From assembly GCA_013619105.1 (NCBI GenBank), contig JABXKU010000020.1, positions 1-61,829 of the forward strand: 61,829 nt of DNA, read 5' to 3'. The position numbers were made by a program, and so were the translations under genes. Positions 8,307 through 61,829 of the stretch are shown here, piece after piece (position 1 is the first letter of the stretch; each line of letters begins with the position of its first letter). The DNA comes from Desulfuromonadales bacterium (GTDB lineage Bacteria > Desulfobacterota > Desulfuromonadia > Desulfuromonadales > Syntrophotaleaceae). The notes under the pieces are model-generated. The model had not been told where the DNA came from and did not search any database. It saw only the letters and a program-made list of their open reading frames with translations.

Positions 8307-9071
8307 CTACTCCATGGCAACAACGAAACAATTGCTGAACCCGTGGCCTTCAAAGGAAAGCTTGGCCGACTCAGCAGCATCCAGAGAGGCATATTTGCCG
8401 ACCCGCACTCGAAAGTAATTATTGCCATTAATCAAGCTGCGACAGACACTGGCAGCCCCGAACCGGCTGCGCAATTCTGCCGCCAGACGCTGTGCATTGG
8501 CGTCGGAACTGAAAGAGGCCACCTGCACAGCATAACTCTCGACCTGATCACTGGAGGTCGACCGATAAACGATTCGGCCGTCAGCATCCTGTTCTTGAAA
8601 ACCCAGAGCTTCGATTTTAACCGGGGCAGTGCCCGGCCCGACAACACCAAGCTTATCCGCCGCCGTATAAGAAAGGTCGATAATTCGCCCTTGAATAAAG
8701 GGGCCACGATCGTTGACCCTTACCACAAGCTGTCGGCCGTTGGCTAAATTATGCACACGAACAGAGGTACCCAGGGGCAAGGTCTTGTGAGCGGCGGTCA
8801 TGGCGTACATATTGTAAATTTCGCCATTGCTGGTCTTGCGACCATGAAATTTGCGGCCATACCAGCTGGCAAGCCCCTGTTGAACGAAGCCCTCGTGACT
8901 GGCAAGAGGCGTATAAAGCTGCCCGTTAACGGTGTAGGGTTTCTGGTGGGGCTTCAAGCTGGCGTTGGAAGGGCTATCCAGCACTCGAGTCTGATAACCA
9001 CCGCCACAAGCGGTACATAACAGCAGGGCGCAACCGACAGCGGCTATTTTAGAAATACGCAGACAAATCAT
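8307..9071 (-). CDS. rlpA: RlpA-like lipoprotein with DPBB and SPOR domains
   Basis: A 254-residue protein with a lipoprotein signal peptide (MICLRISKIAAVGCALLLC-TAC; the lipobox Cys is followed by GGG). A double-psi beta-barrel domain follows (GLASWYGRKFHGRKTSNGE, ending with VNDRGPF), and then a C-terminal SPOR domain (SYAVQVASF onward) that binds denuded glycan strands at the septum. RlpA homologues are septal lytic transglycosylases; the Asp in VNDRGPF is the expected catalytic residue. I chose ATG 9071 because GAGGTG lies 9 nt upstream and because it gives a proper signal peptide. An upstream in-frame start would lengthen the signal. Confidence 0.92.
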   Translation of the reverse strand: MICLRISKIAAVGCALLLCTACGGGYQTRVLDSPSNASLKPHQKPYTVNGQLYTPLASHEGFVQQGLASWYGRKFHGRKTSNGEIYNMYAMTAAHKTLPLGTSVRVHNLANGRQLVVRVNDRGPFIQGRIIDLSYTAADKLGVVGPGTAPVKIEALGFQEQDADGRIVYRSTSSDQVESYAVQVASFSSDANAQRLAAELRSRFGAASVCRSLINGNNYFRVRVGKYASLDAAESAKLSFEGHGFSNCFVVAME

Positions 9072-9129
9072 AGTGATTTTCACCTCGGAAGACACTTGTT
9101 ACCGGTAGCTAAACAAATTTTATTTTATC

Positions 9130-9162
9130 TAGTGTCCATCCGGAAACCATAGATGAAAACTA
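9130..9162 (-). repeat. Minimal copy (D) of the dispersed palindromic element
   Basis: A 33-bp remnant whose ends are inverted: TAGTGTCCATCCGG at one side and GATGAAAACTA at the other. Read on the minus strand it is TAGTTTTCATC, TATG, GTTTCCGGATGGACACTA, i.e. the two ends of copies A, B and C joined after loss of the middle. It lies 59 bp upstream of the rlpA start. Confidence 0.7.
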
Positions 9163-9164
9163 TC

Positions 9165-9437
9165 TAACCGACAAGAACGGTAGTTTTGATAGCGGCACAG
9201 CCAGCGGGAGTCTTACCGTTGGCTATAAAGGCCAGTTTTGCAGCAAGCCGTACAGATACCCACCGTGAAAAACATCGCCGCAACCGGTGGTGTCAACGGC
9301 TTCACAGCAAATGCAGCCTGATAAAAGCTCTTGCCGTCCTGACACAAAGGGTGGCTACCTGCTTCACCATCGGTAACGGTCGCTGCCCGACCAAGGCAAT
9401 CGCTTGTTTGGCCACTAGGCTCTCGTTGGAAGCTGGC
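9165..9437 (-). pseudogene. Decayed PfkB-family (ribokinase-like) sugar kinase, C-terminal remnant
   Basis: Minus-strand translation in shifting frames recovers a PfkB-family C-terminus. NESLVAKQAIALVGQRP is followed, after a frameshift, by VTDGEAGSHPLCQDGKSF and QAAFAVK. A second one-base shift gives VDTTGCGDVFHGGYLYGLL, the hallmark PfkB catalytic signature (DTTGAGD), and then QNWPL and an in-frame TAG. After another shift TPAGCAAIKTTVLVG resembles the helix that follows in this family. At least three frame disruptions and the missing N-terminus make it a clear pseudogene. It starts right after the accA stop, and copy D of the palindromic element lies at its end. Confidence 0.8.
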
Positions 9438-10391
9438 TTATTCTTCGATAAAACTCATGGCCCGCAGCTTGGCATAGCGCTGCTCCTTCAATTCTTCGGG
9501 CGAAAGCTGTTTGAGTTCATCGAGATGCTTTTTGAGATATGCTTTTACCTGCTGCGCAGCAGCTACGTGGTCACTGTGAGCACCACCTAGCGGTTCGGGG
9601 ATTACATCATCGATGATACAACCGAGCTTATCAATGTCCCGAGCGGTCAACTTCAAGGCTTCGGCCGCCAGGTCGCCCTTGGTGCCATCCTTCCACAAGA
9701 TAGCGGCGCAACCTTCCGGAGAAATCACCGAATAGACCGAATATTCCATCATCAGCACGCGATTACCGACAGCAATAGCCAGCGCCCCTCCCGATCCGCC
9801 CTCACCGGTAACGGTAACGATAATAGGAACACTGAGGGCAGCCATATCACGCAGATTGCGGGCAATGGCTTCGGCCTGGCCCCGTTCTTCGGCACCGATG
9901 CCGGGAAAGGCCCCCGGCGTATCGACAAAGGTGAAGATCGGCAGGCCGAACTGCTCGGCCATCTTCATGACCCGCAGGGCCTTGCGATACCCCTCAGGAT
10001 TAGGCATGGCAAAATTGCGCCGCACCTTTTCCTTGGTGTCCCGCCCTTTCTGGTGGCCGATAATCGCGCAGGGCTCGCCGTCAAAACGAGCAAAACCACA
10101 GACCAGAGCGGGGTCGTCGCTATAGAGACGGTCACCGTGAACCTCGAACCAGTCGCTAAAGATATGCTCGACAAAATCAAGGGTAAAAGGACGGTTGACG
10201 TGACGGGCCAGCTGAGTCAGTTGCCAACGGTTGAGATTGGAAAAAATCTCCTTGCGCAGCTTTTTCGCCTTCTTCTCCAGCTTCTGAATGTCGGTAGAAA
10301 AATTGACTTGATCAGTGGAATAGTCGCGTAGTTCACATATCTTACGCTCCAGTTCAACCAAGGGTTTTTCGAAGTCAAGATAGAATTGCAT
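9438..10391 (-). CDS. accA: Acetyl-CoA carboxylase carboxyltransferase subunit alpha
   Basis: A 317-residue protein matching AccA over its full usual length. It begins [18 protein letters not shown] and contains [15 protein letters not shown]-type and [11 protein letters not shown] motifs, [12 protein letters not shown], the oxyanion-hole region [11 protein letters not shown], and [21 protein letters not shown]. With AccD it transfers carboxyl from carboxybiotin to acetyl-CoA in the first committed step of fatty acid synthesis. I chose ATG 10391 because CAGGAG lies 6 nt upstream; the frame extends 27 codons further. It is downstream of dnaE on the same strand, a common arrangement in proteobacteria. 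Confidence 0.96.
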
Positions 10392-10543
10392 CAGCATCTC
10401 CTGACTGCCCCCCCTGTGGGATGGCAGATTCAAAATATAGCAGGCCATTGCTGGACGGCCTGGTAAGCCCATCGACAGGCAAAAGGAAGCGACCGGAACG
10501 GTCCGTGGCCAACCTTGAGCCAGCTTAACGGTTTAAGTAGAAA

Positions 10544-10595: not shown

Positions 10596-13500
10596 CTATT
10601 CAAACGTTACCACATTGTAACCGAACAACCGATCGGCCTCTTCCATTATTTCATCGCTGGCAGCTACCAGAAGATCGTCGGGTAGCTTAAGTAGGGTTTC
10701 ACTGCGATTAGGAATAAGCAACCGCACCATAGCTCGGCATTTGCCGCGATGACGAGCCACAATATCCCGTAGCGCCCGCAACTGACCACTATCGAGGCCG
10801 GTGGTGTTGATACGAAAGTTGACTCGGGTGGTCTGCTGCAAATTGACATCCTGCAGGGCCACGATCTTCTGGGCCATGAGCTTGCAGGTTTCCTCGCCAA
10901 CATCTAGGGTGCCGGAAACCAGCAATGGAGCTTCGCCCCGCAACAGCTCCATTGATGCCTGGTAGACTTCGGGGAAGACCACCATTTCCACGAATCCACT
11001 CAGATCCTCCAGAGTGACAAATGCCATGCGGTCACCCTTTTTGGTCACTAGTTCCTTGAGCCCTGCGACGACGCCGCCGACCTGAACTTCCTCTTTGTCG
11101 GCCCGCTCCTGCAAGCCTGCGGTATCGCAACTGGCGAAGCGTTTCAGAGTGTCAGCATAACGGTCCAGGGGATGGCCGGTAATATAGAAGCCAAGGGCCT
11201 CTTTTTCGAAACCGAGTAGTACCTTTTCCGACCATTCCTCCATATTCGGCAGTTGGCCGTAGCCATTACCCCGTTGGGAAACAAGTTCTTCGGTGCCAAA
11301 TAGCGATTCCTGGCCGGCTGCCAGTTCTCGTTGGATTTTCTGCCCAACCTCCATGGAATCCTCCAGAACCTCCAGGTACTGGGCGCGTTTGCCACCGAGG
11401 GAGTCGAAGGCGCCGCATTTGATGAGCGCTTCGGCCACCTTTTTATTAACCTTGCGCAGGTCAGCTCGTTCACAGAAATCGTTATGGGTGGCAAAAGGTT
11501 GTTCCTTGCGGCCCGCCATAATTGCTTCAACGGCCGCGCCACCAACTCCTTTGACGGCACCGAGACCGAAGCGAATCGCTTTTCCGTGTACGGTAAATGT
11601 ACGGCTTGAGGCATTGATGTCCGGGGGGAGTACCTCGATACCCATGGACCGCACTTCATTGACATTCTTAATAATCTTGTCGGTGTTCTCCATGTCCTCG
11701 GTAAGCAGGGCGGCCATGAACTCCACCGGATAGTGAGTCTTAAGATAAGCAGTCTGGTAAGCAATCAGAGCGTAGGCAGCCGAGTGAGACTTGTTAAAAC
11801 CGTAGGCAGCGAACATCTCCATCAGGTCAAAGACCGCCTCGGCCTTCTTGAGATCGAGCTTGTTCTCCTTGGCGCCAGCCATGAAAAGGTCTTTCTGCTT
11901 GGCCATCTCCTCGGGCTTCTTCTTGCCCATGGCCCGGCGCAGCAGGTCGGCGGCGCCGAGACTAAAATTGGCCAGCACCTGGCCGATAAGCATTACCTGT
12001 TCCTGATAGACAATGACCCCGTAGGTGTCCTTGAGGATCGGCTCAAGTTGCGGAAAGTCGTAAGTGACTTCCTTCTTGCCGTGTTTACGTAGAATGAAAT
12101 CATCGACCATGCCCGAACCGAGGGGACCGGGCCGATAGAGGGCGCAGGCGGCGATGACGTCTTCAAAGCAGCTTGGTTTAAGTTTAACCAGCATATCTTT
12201 GATACCCGACGACTCGAGCTGAAAGACGCCGGTGGTATTTCCAGCAGACATCAGGCGATAGGTCTCGGCGTCGTCATCGCGGATCAGCTTAAGGTCAAAA
12301 GCAGGGTCCTTCCCCGCATGAATCAGGCGCACCGCGTTTGCGATAACGGTCAGGGTCTTAAGACCGAGAAAGTCGAACTTAACCAGACCGATCTGTTCGA
12401 CATACTTCATGGTGAACTGGGTCACCTGGGCGCCCGACTTGGGCTCGGTATACAGGGGCAGATATTCGGGCAGGGGATTAGGCGTCACCACTACCCCTGC
12501 GGCATGGGTTGAGGCGTGGCGGGTCAGACCTTCGAGGGCCAGAGCCACTTCGAGAAGTTTGGCCACTTGCGGTTCTTTGTTGGCCAGTTCCTTAAGTTTA
12601 GGCTCCTGCGCCAAAGCCTCCTTCAGAGTGATATTCAGAATTGCCGGCACCAACTTGGCAATCTTATCTACCTCGCCGTAGGGCATATTCAGAGCCCGGC
12701 CAACATCGCGCACCACTCCCTTGGCCATCATGGTGCCAAAGGTGATGATTTGGGCGACGTTGGCCTCGCCGTACTTCTTCCTCACATAATCGATAACCTC
12801 TTCGCGGCCATATATGCAGAAGTCGACGTCAATATCAGGCATCGACACCCGTTCCGGGTTGAGGAACCGCTCAAAGAGCAGGTTATAGGGCATGGGGTCA
12901 ATATCGGTGATGCGAATGGAATAGGCCACCAAGCTACCAGCAGCGCTGCCACGGCCAGGTCCCACAGGAATTCCGTTATTCTTGGCCCAATTGATGAAAT
13001 CGGCAACGATAAGAAAATAACCAGGGAAACCCATGGAGCGGACAGTTTCCAACTCAATTTCAAGGCGGGCGCGATAGTCCTTTTCTTGCTCGGCAGAAAA
13101 GTCAGGACATCTCCGCCGAATCTCTACCAGACGTTCATTAAGACCCTTGCGGGAATCTTCGGCCAACACTTCATCGAGGGTCTGTTCCTCGGGTTTTTCG
13201 TATTGAGGAAAGTGGTAGGTGTTGAAATCGAATTCAATATTGCAGCGGTCGGCAATAGCCAAAGTGTTGCTCAGAGCCTCGGGCACCTCTTTGAACAACG
13301 CTGCCATTTCCTCAGGCGACTTGACGTAGAATTCTTCGTTTGGAAACCGCATCCGGTTCGGGTCGTCCATGGTCTTGCCAGTCTGAATGGACAGCAATAC
13401 CTCATGGGCGTAGGCGTCTTCTCGGGTCAGATAGTGGCAGTCGTTGGTTGCCACCAACGGCAGGCTAAGTTCCTTGGAAAGCTGAATAAGCCCCTTGTTA

Positions 13501-14069
13501 GCCACATCCTGCACAGTAAGAAAGTTTTCTTGCAACTCGAGATAGAGCCGGTCACCATCGAAGATTCGGGCCATTTCCTCGGTGCGGCGCTTGGCATCGG
13601 CCATCTTGCCTTGATTGATCAGGGACGGAATCTCGCCGCCAAGACAGGCGGTCATGGCGATGAGTCCTTCGTTGTGCTCGGCCAAGAGCTGCCAGTCGAT
13701 ACGGGGCTTGTAGTAGAACCCCTCACGGTAAGCTGCAGACACCAAGTGGCAGAGATTACGGTAGCCAGTCAGGTTCTGGCACAGCAGCATAAAGTGATGG
13801 GAGGCTTCGGAGGGTCCACGGGCGCTGGTCTTGTCAAACCGGGAACCGGGCGCTATATAGACCTCGCAACCGATAATAGGTTTAATCCCTGCAGCTTTGG
13901 CCTTACTGTAAAACTCCACAGCGCCAAACATGTTGCCGTGATCGGTCACCGCCAAGGCTGGCATCTGGCAGGCCACGGCGCGCTTGACCAGGTCGCCGAT
14001 CTTAATGGCGCCATCAAGCAAACTATATTGACTATGAAGATGTAAATGTACGAAACCTGGAGGGGTCAT
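10596..14069 (-). CDS. dnaE: DNA polymerase III alpha subunit
   Basis: A 1157-residue replicative polymerase subunit. The N-terminal PHP domain (FVHLHLHSQYSLLDGAIKI) is followed by the polymerase core with PVGPGRGSAAGSLVAY and the catalytic acidic motif MPDIDVDFC near residue 405, then fingers and helix-hairpin-helix regions (GFNKSHSAAYALIAYQTAY) and a C-terminal OB-fold. Length and motif order are those of the DnaE1 type without a proofreading exonuclease domain. The start at ATG 14069 has no strong Shine-Dalgarno sequence; a TTG at 14084 is in frame but less likely. Copy A of the palindromic element lies 59 bp upstream. Confidence 0.97.
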   Translation of the reverse strand: MTPPGFVHLHLHSQYSLLDGAIKIGDLVKRAVACQMPALAVTDHGNMFGAVEFYSKAKAAGIKPIIGCEVYIAPGSRFDKTSARGPSEASHHFMLLCQNLTGYRNLCHLVSAAYREGFYYKPRIDWQLLAEHNEGLIAMTACLGGEIPSLINQGKMADAKRRTEEMARIFDGDRLYLELQENFLTVQDVANKGLIQLSKELSLPLVATNDCHYLTREDAYAHEVLLSIQTGKTMDDPNRMRFPNEEFYVKSPEEMAALFKEVPEALSNTLAIADRCNIEFDFNTYHFPQYEKPEEQTLDEVLAEDSRKGLNERLVEIRRRCPDFSAEQEKDYRARLEIELETVRSMGFPGYFLIVADFINWAKNNGIPVGPGRGSAAGSLVAYSIRITDIDPMPYNLLFERFLNPERVSMPDIDVDFCIYGREEVIDYVRKKYGEANVAQIITFGTMMAKGVVRDVGRALNMPYGEVDKIAKLVPAILNITLKEALAQEPKLKELANKEPQVAKLLEVALALEGLTRHASTHAAGVVVTPNPLPEYLPLYTEPKSGAQVTQFTMKYVEQIGLVKFDFLGLKTLTVIANAVRLIHAGKDPAFDLKLIRDDDAETYRLMSAGNTTGVFQLESSGIKDMLVKLKPSCFEDVIAACALYRPGPLGSGMVDDFILRKHGKKEVTYDFPQLEPILKDTYGVIVYQEQVMLIGQVLANFSLGAADLLRRAMGKKKPEEMAKQKDLFMAGAKENKLDLKKAEAVFDLMEMFAAYGFNKSHSAAYALIAYQTAYLKTHYPVEFMAALLTEDMENTDKIIKNVNEVRSMGIEVLPPDINASSRTFTVHGKAIRFGLGAVKGVGGAAVEAIMAGRKEQPFATHNDFCERADLRKVNKKVAEALIKCGAFDSLGGKRAQYLEVLEDSMEVGQKIQRELAAGQESLFGTEELVSQRGNGYGQLPNMEEWSEKVLLGFEKEALGFYITGHPLDRYADTLKRFASCDTAGLQERADKEEVQVGGVVAGLKELVTKKGDRMAFVTLEDLSGFVEMVVFPEVYQASMELLRGEAPLLVSGTLDVGEETCKLMAQKIVALQDVNLQQTTRVNFRINTTGLDSGQLRALRDIVARHRGKCRAMVRLLIPNRSETLLKLPDDLLVAASDEIMEEADRLFGYNVVTFE

Positions 14070-14127
14070 TAATATGTCCAGCAAAGTGTGACAAAAGAAC
14101 GGTCCGCTAGCGGTAACCGAGATTAAC

Positions 14128-14306
14128 TAGTTTTCATCCAGAAACAGCCCTTTCCCCCAATCTCGGCGTCAATCCGCGCCCTTGCGTGTGCGGCGTAAAC
14201 AGCTACGCCTCCGCGCAAGCGCTTGATTTCCTTGACCTTGGAGAAAAGTGTTCGTTTCCCATTTGAAAACTGCGCTGTGTCCATCCAGAGTTCACGGATG
14301 GACACT
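14128..14306 (+). repeat. Full-length copy (A) of the dispersed palindromic intergenic element
   Basis: A 179-bp element with imperfect terminal inverted repeats: TAGTTTTCATCC at the left, and TAGTGTCCATCC read inward from the right. Inside are an outer arm pair (GTTTTCATCCAGAAAC with GTTTCCCATTTGAAAAC), an internal hairpin at 14181-14217 (CTTGCGTGTGCGGCGTA, loop AACAGC, TACGCCTCCGCGCAAG) and a terminal hairpin (GTGTCCATCC...GGATGGACAC). It matches 61682-61829 almost base for base over the shared part. It carries no ORF and lies between maf and dnaE. Confidence 0.85.
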
Positions 14307-14564
14307 AACTAAGAAAACCGATATCGGCAGACGCATAAGCGCGACGATGACCGGCTCAGAAATCGGTCGACAACTTTACCACCGACTGTGATTGAGGGTC
14401 AACCGCCAGCGAAGCATGACAAGTGCCTGCAAAACCTTTGATTTGGTCCGCGAAGCAACAGTGCTTTTGCCAACAGTCTTTTCTGAAGTATGGGCAGGAA
14501 TGGGTTTTCCCTCGCAGCCCCTGCCCGCCCCTGGGGAAACTGTATTGCGCAAAACACCGGCTGT
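14307..14564. other. Intergenic region without a recognisable gene
   Basis: 258 bp between repeat copy A and the maf stop. A minus-strand frame runs through part of it (14399-14608) but overlaps the maf 3' end in another frame and looks like no family I know. A short GC-rich palindromic stretch (GCAGCCCCTGCCCGCCCCTGG) lies near 14515. I see no terminator with a T-tract, and the stretch may be decayed sequence. Confidence 0.4.
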
Positions 14565-15149
14565 TTAAACAAGCACCCGGACGCCAAAATGGGCAAGAAA
14601 ATCGACAACCTTAATCAGCGGCAAGCCGATCAGTGTTGTGTAATCATCCCCGGCCATTCGCTCCATGAGGCTGATACCAAGCCCCTCAACTTTAAAAGAG
14701 CCTGCGCAATCAAAGGGTTGCTCCCGCTCAAGATAGACTTGGATCTGCTCGGAGGAAAGCTTGCGCAGGGTTACAGAATAGCAGTCGTAATCAGTCAATG
14801 ACTCGTCGTTGGCGGCATCATAGATACTGATTCCGGTGTAAAAGGTGTGGGTCTTACCGACCATCTCCCGAAGTTGGGCTGCGGCCTGCGACAGCCCGCC
14901 AGGCTTGCCGTGGATATGTCCACCGGGCCCGACAAAAACCTGATCTGCACCAAGGATCAAAGCATCGGGATACTTCTCTGCTAGGCTTCTGGCTTTATGA
15001 GCGGCAAGATGCTTGACCAACAATTCGGGAGCCACCTGCTGGTCGATCTTCTCTTCATAGAGGGGCGGCGCCATATGAAAGGGGATCCCCAACTGCCGCA
15101 AAAGTTGCAGCCGATAGGGGCTGGTTGAGGCTAGCACCACCGTTCTCAT
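14565..15149 (-). CDS. maf: Maf-family nucleotide pyrophosphatase (YceF type)
   Basis: A 194-residue Maf/HAM1-fold house-cleaning pyrophosphatase. Motifs are VVLASTSPYRLQLLRQL (phosphate-binding start), a KARSLAEKYPDALILGADQV segment containing the conserved Asp, HGKPGG, and THTFYTGISIYD. The C-terminal part (CAGSFKVEGLGISLMERM, then TTLIGLPLIKV) resembles the E. coli YceF subfamily, which hydrolyses 7-methyl-GTP, more than the YhdE dTTP/UTP type. The subfamily call is by motif resemblance only. It is preceded by AGGAAAACGAGCT. Confidence 0.9.
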   Translation of the reverse strand: MRTVVLASTSPYRLQLLRQLGIPFHMAPPLYEEKIDQQVAPELLVKHLAAHKARSLAEKYPDALILGADQVFVGPGGHIHGKPGGLSQAAAQLREMVGKTHTFYTGISIYDAANDESLTDYDCYSVTLRKLSSEQIQVYLEREQPFDCAGSFKVEGLGISLMERMAGDDYTTLIGLPLIKVVDFLAHFGVRVLV

Positions 15150-21298: not shown

Positions 21299-21949
21299 TC
21301 AACCGGTCACACGTCGCAGCAGGTTCTCGCTATTCTTACGCAATTCTTCGAACTGGGTTTCGGTCAACCCGGCACCAAGGGCGATACGCCGTGCCTGAAC
21401 CAGAGGGGTTAAATCTCCCGGCGCATGACTATCGGTATTGAGCACCAGAGGCGCACCGCCGGCCAGGGCCAGACGGGCGACGTGGCCGTTGCTCAACGAG
21501 TGACCACGGCGAGTGGTCAACTCCAGATAGATACCCCGTTCGGCTGCCAGTCGAACTTCTTCTTCGCTGATCAGTCCGGGATGAGCAAGAATATCGATGT
21601 CGGCCTCCAGCGCGGCCCGATTGGTCCCCTCGGCAACGGGCTCGCAGAGAGTTTCACCGTGGCAGAGCACCAGCTTCGCCCCCAGAGCCCGCGCTTCGCG
21701 AGCAGCGTCAGCGATATCTGCCGGAGGAATGTGGGTCAGTTCGATACCGGGCACCACGGTCAATCCCCACGCGCGGCCGAGATCGTCCGCTACCCGTGCC
21801 AGGCGAGGTATGATCAGATCCATATTGGATCGATCGCCATGATCAGTCAGCCCGATGGCCCGATAACCGGCCACCGCTGCACGGCGGGTAAGTTCAGCCG
21901 GGATCAATTCGCCATCGCTGAAAATAGTATGGGTATGCAGATCGATCAT
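21299..21949 (-). CDS. PHP-domain phosphoesterase (histidinol-phosphatase type)
   Basis: A 216-residue stand-alone PHP domain. It begins with the metal motif MIDLHTHTIFSDGELIPAEL and continues with AIGLTDHGDRSN, VVPGIELTHIPP, LVLCHGETLCEP and ILAHPGLISEEE, ending with a late NTDSHAPGDL. These supply the His/Asp/Glu ligands of the trinuclear PHP site. Such proteins hydrolyse phosphate esters; the substrate is not evident, and there is no his operon near. It lies between the M42 peptidase and miaB on the same strand. Copy C of the palindromic element is 37 bp upstream of its start. Confidence 0.85.
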   Translation of the reverse strand: MIDLHTHTIFSDGELIPAELTRRAAVAGYRAIGLTDHGDRSNMDLIIPRLARVADDLGRAWGLTVVPGIELTHIPPADIADAAREARALGAKLVLCHGETLCEPVAEGTNRAALEADIDILAHPGLISEEEVRLAAERGIYLELTTRRGHSLSNGHVARLALAGGAPLVLNTDSHAPGDLTPLVQARRIALGAGLTETQFEELRKNSENLLRRVTG

Positions 21950-21985
21950 AACGAAACCTTAGATTGTAGGTTACAGATTACGAAC

Positions 21986-22067
21986 TATGTTTTCATCCAG
22001 AAACGGCTCTTTTCCCATATGAAAACCGCACTGTGTCCATCCAAAGTTTCCGGATGGACACGAACTA
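21986..22067 (+). repeat. Internally deleted copy (C) of the dispersed palindromic element
   Basis: An 82-bp copy that keeps both ends, TATGTTTTCATCCAGAAACG and GTGTCCATCC...GGATGGACAC, but lacks the roughly 100-bp middle of copies A and B. The join falls at TTTCCC, which occurs on both sides of the missing segment in copy B, as expected for deletion between short direct repeats. Its right end (GAACTA) overlaps the miaB stop codon. Confidence 0.8.
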
Positions 22068-23417
22068 ACCGGCTTGCCTGGTATCGACTTCCCCTTCAAC
22101 GACAACCCCAATATGGGAATTACGCTGGGCTTCAATCAGCCGCACCGGCACGATACGGCCAATCAGGCTGATATCGGCTTTAAAATTGGTGATACGGTTC
22201 CAACTGGTCCGACCAAACAACTGGCCGCCTCCCTGGCGGCTCTCGCCCTCGACCAACACCGGCACAACCTTACCGACATCCCCCACCTGGAAACCCAGGG
22301 TGATCTCCTCCTGCAGGGCTAGCATGCGATCGAAACGCTGCTTCTTGATCGCGTCCGGCGTGTCGTCGGCCAACAAGGCGGCAGCGGTGCCTTCCCGAGG
22401 AGAAAAGATAAAGGAATAGATTTCGGCAAACTGAGCCTGGCGGAGCAGGTCGAGAGTCTGTTCGAAATCGGCCTGGTCTTCTCCGGGAAACCCAACGATC
22501 ACATCGGAGGTCAGGCGAATCTCGGGGCAGACCTGGCGCAGATGTTCCACCTTAGCAAGGTACTGGTCACGGCTGTAGCCACGCCCCATGGCCTGCAGCA
22601 TACGGTCAGAACCGGCTTGCACCGGTAGGTGTAGGTGTTTACACAATTTATCGAGGCTACCGAAGCAGTCGATAAGATCGCTGGAGAGGTCCTTGGGATG
22701 AGAGGTAACAAAGCGCAATCGCTGCAAGCCCGGTAGTGCATGGACTTGATGCAATAGCTCGGCAAAGGAGATCTCATCCCCTTCCTTAACCCCGTAAGAA
22801 TTAACGTTCTGACCGACCAGGGTAATTTCCACCGCCCCCTGAGCAATAAGCGAGCGCACCTCCTCCAGAACCTCGGCGCTGGGACGGCTAACTTCCCGAC
22901 CCCGCACATGTGGCACTATGCAGTAGGCACAAAAGTTGTCGCAGCCCTGGACGATGGTTACGAAGCGGCTGATCTCTTGGCTCGGCCGACGAGTCGGAAA
23001 AAGCTGGCGTCGCTGTTCGTCATTAAGAAAATCGACTAACAGACCACGCTCCTGCTTGGCCTCGGCGTTCCGTACCAATTCGGCGAGACGATGAACATTG
23101 TGGGTACCGAAAACAAAATCGAGATGGGGGACCTTATCGAGCATCCGCTCCCCTTCATGCTGGGCCACGCAACCGCCGACCGCAAGAATAAGGTCCGGGT
23201 TCCGTTCCTTAAGGGGCTTAAAACTACCGAGATGGCCGTAAACCTTGCGCTCGGCCTTGGCCCGAATGGAGCAGGTATTCAGCAGAATAAGGTCCGCTCT
23301 CTCGGGAGCATCAGTCTGGGCATAACCCAGCTGTTGAAGAATCTCAACCATTTGCTCGGAATCGACCACGTTCATTTGACAGCCGAAGGTTTCCAGATAA
23401 AAATATTTTTCCGTCAT
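22065..23417 (-). CDS. miaB: tRNA-2-methylthio-N6-dimethylallyladenosine synthase
   Basis: A 450-residue radical-SAM methylthiotransferase that adds the 2-methylthio group to i6A37 of tRNAs. The N-terminal MTTase domain binds one cluster through three Cys (FGCQMNVVDSEQM, LLNTCSIRAKAERK, VGGCVAQ). The radical-SAM CxxxCxxC is in GCDNFCAYCIVPHVRGREVS. A TRAM domain closes the protein (PVRLIEAQRNSHIG). I use ATG 23417 (MTEKYFYLETFGCQ); the frame extends nine codons upstream with further start codons and no clear ribosome binding site for either. The TAG stop lies at the edge of repeat copy C. Confidence 0.95.
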   Translation of the reverse strand: MTEKYFYLETFGCQMNVVDSEQMVEILQQLGYAQTDAPERADLILLNTCSIRAKAERKVYGHLGSFKPLKERNPDLILAVGGCVAQHEGERMLDKVPHLDFVFGTHNVHRLAELVRNAEAKQERGLLVDFLNDEQRRQLFPTRRPSQEISRFVTIVQGCDNFCAYCIVPHVRGREVSRPSAEVLEEVRSLIAQGAVEITLVGQNVNSYGVKEGDEISFAELLHQVHALPGLQRLRFVTSHPKDLSSDLIDCFGSLDKLCKHLHLPVQAGSDRMLQAMGRGYSRDQYLAKVEHLRQVCPEIRLTSDVIVGFPGEDQADFEQTLDLLRQAQFAEIYSFIFSPREGTAAALLADDTPDAIKKQRFDRMLALQEEITLGFQVGDVGKVVPVLVEGESRQGGGQLFGRTSWNRITNFKADISLIGRIVPVRLIEAQRNSHIGVVVEGEVDTRQAG

Positions 23418-23592
23418 TCGCTGTGTACCATCACTTGACATCACTTGATATACAAAAGGCCCGACATACTAAAAACTGTACACGGGAGACCAATTTATTA
23501 ACAATATAGAAAGGGACTATAGCGGCAGCCGCGTAAATGAATCTTGCTACGGCAGGTTAATCGGGAATTGTAGCCAATGAAGGGGCAAAAAG

Positions 23593-61681: not shown

Positions 61682-61829
61682 TTGTTTTCATCCGAAAACG
61701 GCTCTTTTCCCCAATCTCGGCGTCAATCCTCGCCCTTGCGTGTGCGGCGTAAACAGCTACGCCTCCGTGCAAGCGCTTGATTTCCTTGACCTTGGGAAAA
61801 ATTGCTCGTTTCCCATATGAAAACTGCAC
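61682..61829 (+). repeat. Long copy (B) of the dispersed palindromic element, truncated by the window end
   Basis: Begins 1-2 nt after the flhB stop (TTGTTTTCATCC) and runs to the window end. It matches copy A nearly base for base, including the internal hairpin at 61735-61773 (CTTGCGTGTGCGGCGTA, loop AACAGC, TACGCCTCCGTGCAAG). In that 37-39-nt hairpin the only change is C to T, which turns a G-C pair into G-U. The right end is expected just beyond the window. Confidence 0.85.

Follow-up and report, generated by a model that had tools for sequence, protein, structure and literature searches.

The closest described systems come from Geobacter species. Twenty-four predicted short RNA elements with the central palindrome GRCGTAGCGCTGCTACGCC were reported in G. 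metallireducens, one of them between dapB and dapL (Aklujkar 2009, PMC2700814); the family was annotated as RNA, and the available text of that paper describes neither ends nor duplications for it. The Chunjie MITE of Geobacter uraniireducens Rf4 (Chen 2008, via the review PMC10969869) is described in the relevant part of the review as 178-235 bp long and present in 38 copies, mostly intergenic, with inverted ends and direct repeats. Multicopy sequences, some of them palindromic, are mentioned for G. bemidjiensis in the available text of PMC2996986.

REP/BIME elements resemble the element considered here in being intergenic palindromes with many copies. However, they consist of a single 20-40 bp hairpin and make no target duplication, whereas the present element is larger, duplicates its target and has a different architecture. 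Correia elements come from Neisseria and duplicate TA; to our knowledge, they have no phylum-wide covarying core. In the part of a review that treats them, they are likewise small, palindromic, MITE-type elements found in many places.

Here we analyse repeats in a 61,829-nucleotide stretch of a Desulfuromonadales genome (the window). They very probably form a family of non-autonomous DNA transposons (MITEs) with a covarying internal hairpin core, and this grade applies to the explanation as a whole. As far as these searches show, the combination of MITE ends, target duplication and phylum-wide covarying core is new, a part being already in print in the available text of PMC2700814. No published description joining the three was found in the open-licence literature, a body of text that leaves most subscription journals outside.

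Copies in the window

The four related places listed in an earlier note on this DNA were all confirmed by reading the sequence, and duplications fix their limits (Table 1). Inverted ends are present in copies A-D, as the note had it, and given the genome-wide matches the element is not a chance resemblance. Copy A starts with GTTTTCATCC at 14130 and finishes with GGATGGACAC at 14305, and its terminal inverted repeats are GTTTTCATCC / GTGTCCATCC. It folds, in this order, into a single long imperfect hairpin with the apex GGCGTA-AACAGC-TACGCC, a short spacer and a 29-nt hairpin. Copy B has the architecture of copy A, truncated by the contig end. Ten-base ends with at most one mismatch are barely more frequent in the window than in shuffles (7 vs. 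a mean of 5.1, and 5 vs. 3.8), and thus copy D alone is weak evidence; it was accepted because of its duplication and the genome-wide counts of ends. Transcription from a promoter-like site at 14402-14373 (minus strand), upstream of copy A, would read through A towards dnaE.

Table 1. Copies of the element in the window, their parts and neighbouring genes
Feature	Position	Strand	Remarks
Copy A, full element, 176 bp	14130..14305	+	ends and target duplications
Copy A, left target duplication TAACTA, 6 bp	14124..14129		present once in the G002 empty site
Copy A, right target duplication TAACTA, 6 bp	14306..14311		
Copy A, conserved hairpin core	14145..14255	+	covariance model R1, 115 bits, E 2.6e-27
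Copy A, apical hairpin GGCGTA-AACAGC-TACGCC	14192..14209	+	loop AACAGC at 14198-14203
Copy A, right-end hairpin	14277..14305	+	10-nt arms, loop 9, total 29 nt
Copy A, neighbours			DnaE 10596-14084 (-); Maf-family gene 14565-15149 (-)
Copy B	61684..61829	+	ended by contig edge; core 61699-61809
Copy C, 73 bp, without core	21989..22061	+	
Copy C, duplications GAACTA	21982-21987 and 22062-22067		one additional T on the left side
Copy C, neighbours			gene 21299-21949 (-), histidinol phosphate phosphatase domain; MiaB 22065-23444 (-)
Copy D, 29 bp, ends only	9132..9160	-	
Copy D, duplications TATCTA	9126-9131 and 9161-9166		
Copy D, neighbours			RlpA-family gene 8307-9095 (-); AccA 9438-10472 (-)

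Copy number, spread and mobility

The many genomic copies predicted from the window are indeed there. The 3.3-Mb genome to which it belongs yields at least 44 matches to copy A (40 of 89 candidates scored), which correspond to about 40 places, as four copies are split in two pieces by an insert; some of these places hold partial copies. Ten further copies, 72-74 bp long, belong to the short form represented by copy C. A 15-base end pattern, at most two mismatches allowed, occurs at 166 sites vs. 10 for the reversed control. Copy A also finds further copies in 50 of 97 other genomes (51 of 98 with its own; eight candidates scored per genome), and these 98 genomes have matches in 30 of their 48 genera. 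With the covariance model R1, which was built from the core, matches were obtained in 66 of the 395 genomes searched from the phylum, own genome counted, and in 46 of 246 genera (E<=0.001, strict filters, nine candidates scored per genome).

The core pattern was seen in at least 112 stretches of named records, and the 80 listed mostly carry Desulfuromonadales, Geobacter or Deltaproteobacteria labels. Lone MAGs labelled Thermoanaerobaculales, Chloroflexi or Myxococcales also have it and may be binning errors. Plasmid, phage and E. coli records contain no match at 1e-5; relaxing E to 10 brings up weak hits only, the best at 0.6 and one on a Geobacter plasmid. A viral collection has one contig with the core pattern. 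Contigs end inside copies, for instance that of the window (61684-61829) and G000:C119 (1-108). Thus the element is a practical cause of assembly breaks, and the copy counts are low estimates.

The 176-bp copies are bounded by ends like GTTTYCRTCCGGAAAC and GTGTCCATCCGGAAAC. Both ends agree in at least 7 of 10 bases in 109 of 113 size-selected copies, an agreement that arises partly by construction, as the copies had been chosen by their ends. Perfect 6-bp duplications flank 49 of the 113 copies of 170-182 bp, compared with 2.4 in shuffles. Per-base agreement between the flanks of these copies is 68-81% at the six-base offset and much lower at other offsets, the consensus of the target being about TARYTA. 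The size classes of 29 bp and 120-160 bp were left out as elements, since they are mostly parts of full ones.

Empty sites corresponding to copy A were found by Blast in the sister species G002 and G001, where the flanks overlap by six bases and the element is absent. In G002 the site reads ACCGAGATTAACTAAGAAAACC, identical across the junction to the window once 176 bp and one TAACTA are removed; in G001 it agrees across the junction apart from point changes. Outside this order, both ends are present in 10 of the 15 loci read in G539, and 8 of these 10 have perfect duplications. Duplications were read by eye also in G287, G460, G378, G490 and G198, and near-identical copies in G287 occupy different TANNTA sites. 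In most loci printed from the R1 matches, GTTTCC-type left ends adjoin the core, as judged by eye. A strand bias suggested by the site list of G460 was rejected, because the list misses a site present in the sequence.

The earlier note had found no ORF, and indeed no frame is consistently kept open: the most open one is free of stops in 57 of 111 copies, and column entropies by phase (0.69, 0.57, 0.56) form no clear three-base rhythm. A coding reading was rejected, as many copies have stops in every frame. The assignment to MITEs follows from the inverted ends, 6-bp duplications, empty sites, absence of coding and many copies. Such an element would be moved in trans by a DDE-type transposase encoded elsewhere.

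The hairpin core

The core is about 111 bp long and forms one long hairpin. An alignment of 58 copies with less than 90% identity (A1), picked from 111, has 37 consensus pairs. Changes on both sides occur in 18 of these pairs vs. 10.0 in shuffles; for instance, columns 5-142 contain TA in 28 and CG in 28 copies, and columns 35-109 contain TA in 30 and GC in 21. In A1, 95.8% of the pair cells are paired, compared with 31-54% in slid versions. None of 500 shuffles, which do not keep relatedness, reaches A1 on any of five measures. For copy A, the fold z is -5.85 as RNA and -4.66 as DNA, and for its minus strand as RNA it is -6.35. Pairing is kept among copies. R1 itself detects A and B in the window, and weakly also their own reverse strands.

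The length is 110-113 in most R1 matches listed, and bulges and internal loops hold their position across the phylum. The hairpin had been called almost invariant; the loop AACAGC and the stem GGCGTA-TACGCC do stand in copy A, but stems and loop vary across the wider family, the stems for the most part without loss of pairing.

In some genomes, above all in G542, the core stands without MITE ends, and no duplication was demonstrated for such copies in the loci read. R1 has 18 matches in G542 (a single contig of 4.0 Mb); MITE ends are absent, and 5 of the 15 matches listed contain exact GRCGTAGCGCTGCTACGCC. At four loci of this genome (L398, L400, L402, L406) core-only copies follow one another in the same orientation, at intervals of about 128 bp.

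This palindrome is what core relatives have in common with the predicted short RNAs of G. metallireducens, as far as the available text of PMC2700814 describes them. The window copies do not have it, as their loop differs. Of 136 genomes from the order, 16 contain exact GRCGTAGCGCTGCTACGCC, and the family of the window genome is not represented among these 16. At 9 of 25 such loci R1 matches at the palindrome with E <1e-9, and three more match weakly; over all 25, R1 gives 16 matches at E<=10, of which 14 are below 0.01. Loci where the palindrome has different arms match R1 weakly or not at all, and possibly represent a second, related palindrome family. Exact palindromes with different arms, many like CATCTGCGGCGTT ... 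GCCTTGCATCTG, were seen at L228, L234-L237, L242-L244, L247 and L249-L252.

The Chunjie MITE may belong to the same family as the window element. The host genus and size range fit, the two being likened by description and not by sequence, on the basis of the part of PMC10969869 that covers it; in G539 (a single contig of 5.1 Mb) the element has 175-177 and 239 bp. The multicopy sequences of G. bemidjiensis, as the available text of PMC2996986 presents them, may include the family too. The conserved interior ties the 2009 family of predicted RNAs together with, perhaps, the 2008 MITE.

The core was found directly upstream of dapL in 7 of 49 regions, three times on the strand of the gene and four times on the opposite one. 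Three of the 49 regions had been selected for holding the palindrome, and the position was matched to the dapL side only. Among 169 copies, 67 could be classified by gene context: 40 lie between tandem, 15 between divergent and 12 between convergent genes. Relative to the tandem genes, 22 are opposite and 18 have the same orientation. A cis-regulatory reading was rejected, as there is no orientation preference and the core stands at dapL in both orientations.

As a rule, the interiors of MITEs drift and are dissimilar in different lineages. Here, compensatory changes preserve an interior hairpin of nearly fixed length in many families of the phylum, and also outside the MITE. An ordinary MITE needs no phylum-wide conserved core, and this speaks against a plain MITE reading; the conservation suggests that the hairpin itself has some role. 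The core may be kept since its minus strand (as oriented in the window) has a function as a folded RNA, or as single-stranded DNA, beyond being a spacer, although of this step we are less sure.

Two lines of evidence bear on the strand. Of the 58 copies, 56 fold better on the minus strand, which has a consensus energy of -36.9 vs. -23.2 for the plus strand. Further, the covarying pairs of A1 (16 pairs, Watson-Crick covariation only) contain 74 A.C and 13 G.T, uncorrected for relatedness; 12 pairs lean to A.C and three to G.T, and 19 of the 74 A.C come from a single pair at the loop. Because an A.C mismatch of the plus strand corresponds to a G.U pair in its complement, the excess points to the minus strand, the counts overstating the certainty because the sequences are related. 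A non-redundant replicate of 25 sequences has 17 A.C vs. 7 G.T (p=0.06); it initially had 35 rows with 30 A.C to 7 G.T, from which seven near-duplicates of A1 and three mutually redundant rows were dropped. The core-only set (32 sequences) has no asymmetry, with 18 A.C vs. 17 G.T.

Off-axis controls (13 G.T to 20 A.C, and 3 to 7) are not significant. The mutation spectrum of 23 copies from the own genome is symmetric (50 C>T changes over 53 C, and 43 G>A changes over 39 G), and 14 tRNAs from the loci studied have 11 G.T and no A.C, as expected of RNA. An earlier count of 31 G.T vs. 39 A.C was set aside as biased, its pairs having been predicted on the plus strand, and so was a fold without G.U, which has too few pairs (three covarying, 3 G.T to 5 A.C). 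We take this as a hint that in the MITE-type copies the minus strand adopts its fold in single-stranded form, most likely as RNA.

One possibility, to which we give somewhat less than an even chance, is that the core is a structure at the DNA level without RNA function, a cruciform or a hairpin of single-stranded DNA to which the transposase or a host DNA-bending protein would bind. This agrees with the occurrence in either orientation and in all gene contexts, with the symmetric core-only set and with the fold z as DNA. However, it does not account for the excess of A.C in A1, whose direction is repeated in the replicate, and forms that lack the core have duplications as well, which deletion in place also explains (see below).

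More tentatively, the element may be a mobile non-coding RNA, close to the mobile structured RNA suggested in the earlier note. Its minus strand would be transcribed, the folded RNA would act in trans or in cis, and the MITE ends would spread it. The better folding of the minus strand and a wobble asymmetry that has no mutational counterpart are consistent with this, as are the RNA pattern of the tRNA control and the annotation as predicted short RNA in the available text of PMC2700814. On the other hand, there is no orientation preference, and the wobble asymmetry is uncorrected for relatedness. The window has no match in Rfam, where nine loci gave two weak matches far below the gathering cut-off. 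On the minus strand of the region scanned at copy A there is a single promoter-like site, where chance alone would give 0.4, and nothing resembling a terminator.

It is conceivable, if rather unlikely, that the core is an ancient folded minus-strand ncRNA of the phylum, spreading as a parasite or passenger in MITEs or without MITE ends. If true, this would make it a mobile RNA gene that disperses in two ways, one within the MITE and one, in Geobacter-like genomes, without ends and even in tandem arrays.

Pairing could also be maintained by mutation instead of selection, since quasi-palindromes are known to be corrected by template-switch repair. We consider this improbable for the core: over the phylum its bulges and internal loops stay fixed, its length is nearly constant in most matches listed, and one class of wobble is tolerated above the other. 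A REP/BIME element mobilised by a RAYT (Y1) transposase, a type named in the earlier note beside the MITE, the reading that held, fits the intergenic, palindromic and multicopy character and can hardly be correct, as it is contradicted by the 176-bp size, the empty sites and the 6-bp duplications, Y1 transposition producing no such target duplication.

Autonomous partner, shorter and longer forms

A transposase with matching terminal repeats, proposed in the earlier note as something to look for, was sought across loci and end lists and not found. The end-pair search of 213 loci (1.1 Mb) yielded no autonomous element with matching ends, nor did the end sites listed from a search of 13 genomes, to which three of the 13 (G056, G063 and G003) contributed none; searches for longer end-paired elements allowed 0-1 mismatches. 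In G287, whose copies are nearly identical, none of 15 sites combines with another to bound a longer element, and of three single sites inspected in this genome one is an 83-bp short form. No autonomous partner is among the sites listed for G460. The end pairs listed for G010, G095 and G059 are only MITE-sized, two neighbouring MITEs, or one 606-bp stretch. A 1.4-kb end pair in G059 was rejected as an autonomous element, being actually two separate MITEs, and the 606-bp stretch in G010 was rejected because it has no duplication and no transposase-like frame. The latter (L254 1055-1660, G010:C1:2420354-2420959) has both kinds of ends, and its flanks are mutually inverted.

Perfect duplications flank 6 of 11 of the 73-bp forms without the core. 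Mobility may thus not require the core, though deletion in place explains these duplications too. A clustering test did not find the short copies to be a lineage of their own (652 of 5000). The 73-bp and 29-bp forms are probably best read as derivatives of the full element. The junction of the 73-bp form falls in TTTCCC repeats at the base of the hairpin, which would suggest an origin by slippage over the hairpin.

An insert of about 60-73 bp, rich in hairpins, distinguishes the longer forms. Its place in the 249-bp copies (L030, L054, L055, L058, L143, L159) is directly before the apical hairpin. Copies of 239 bp were seen at L397 and L405, and the latter, from another genome, carries a different insert at the spot where the 249-bp copies have theirs.
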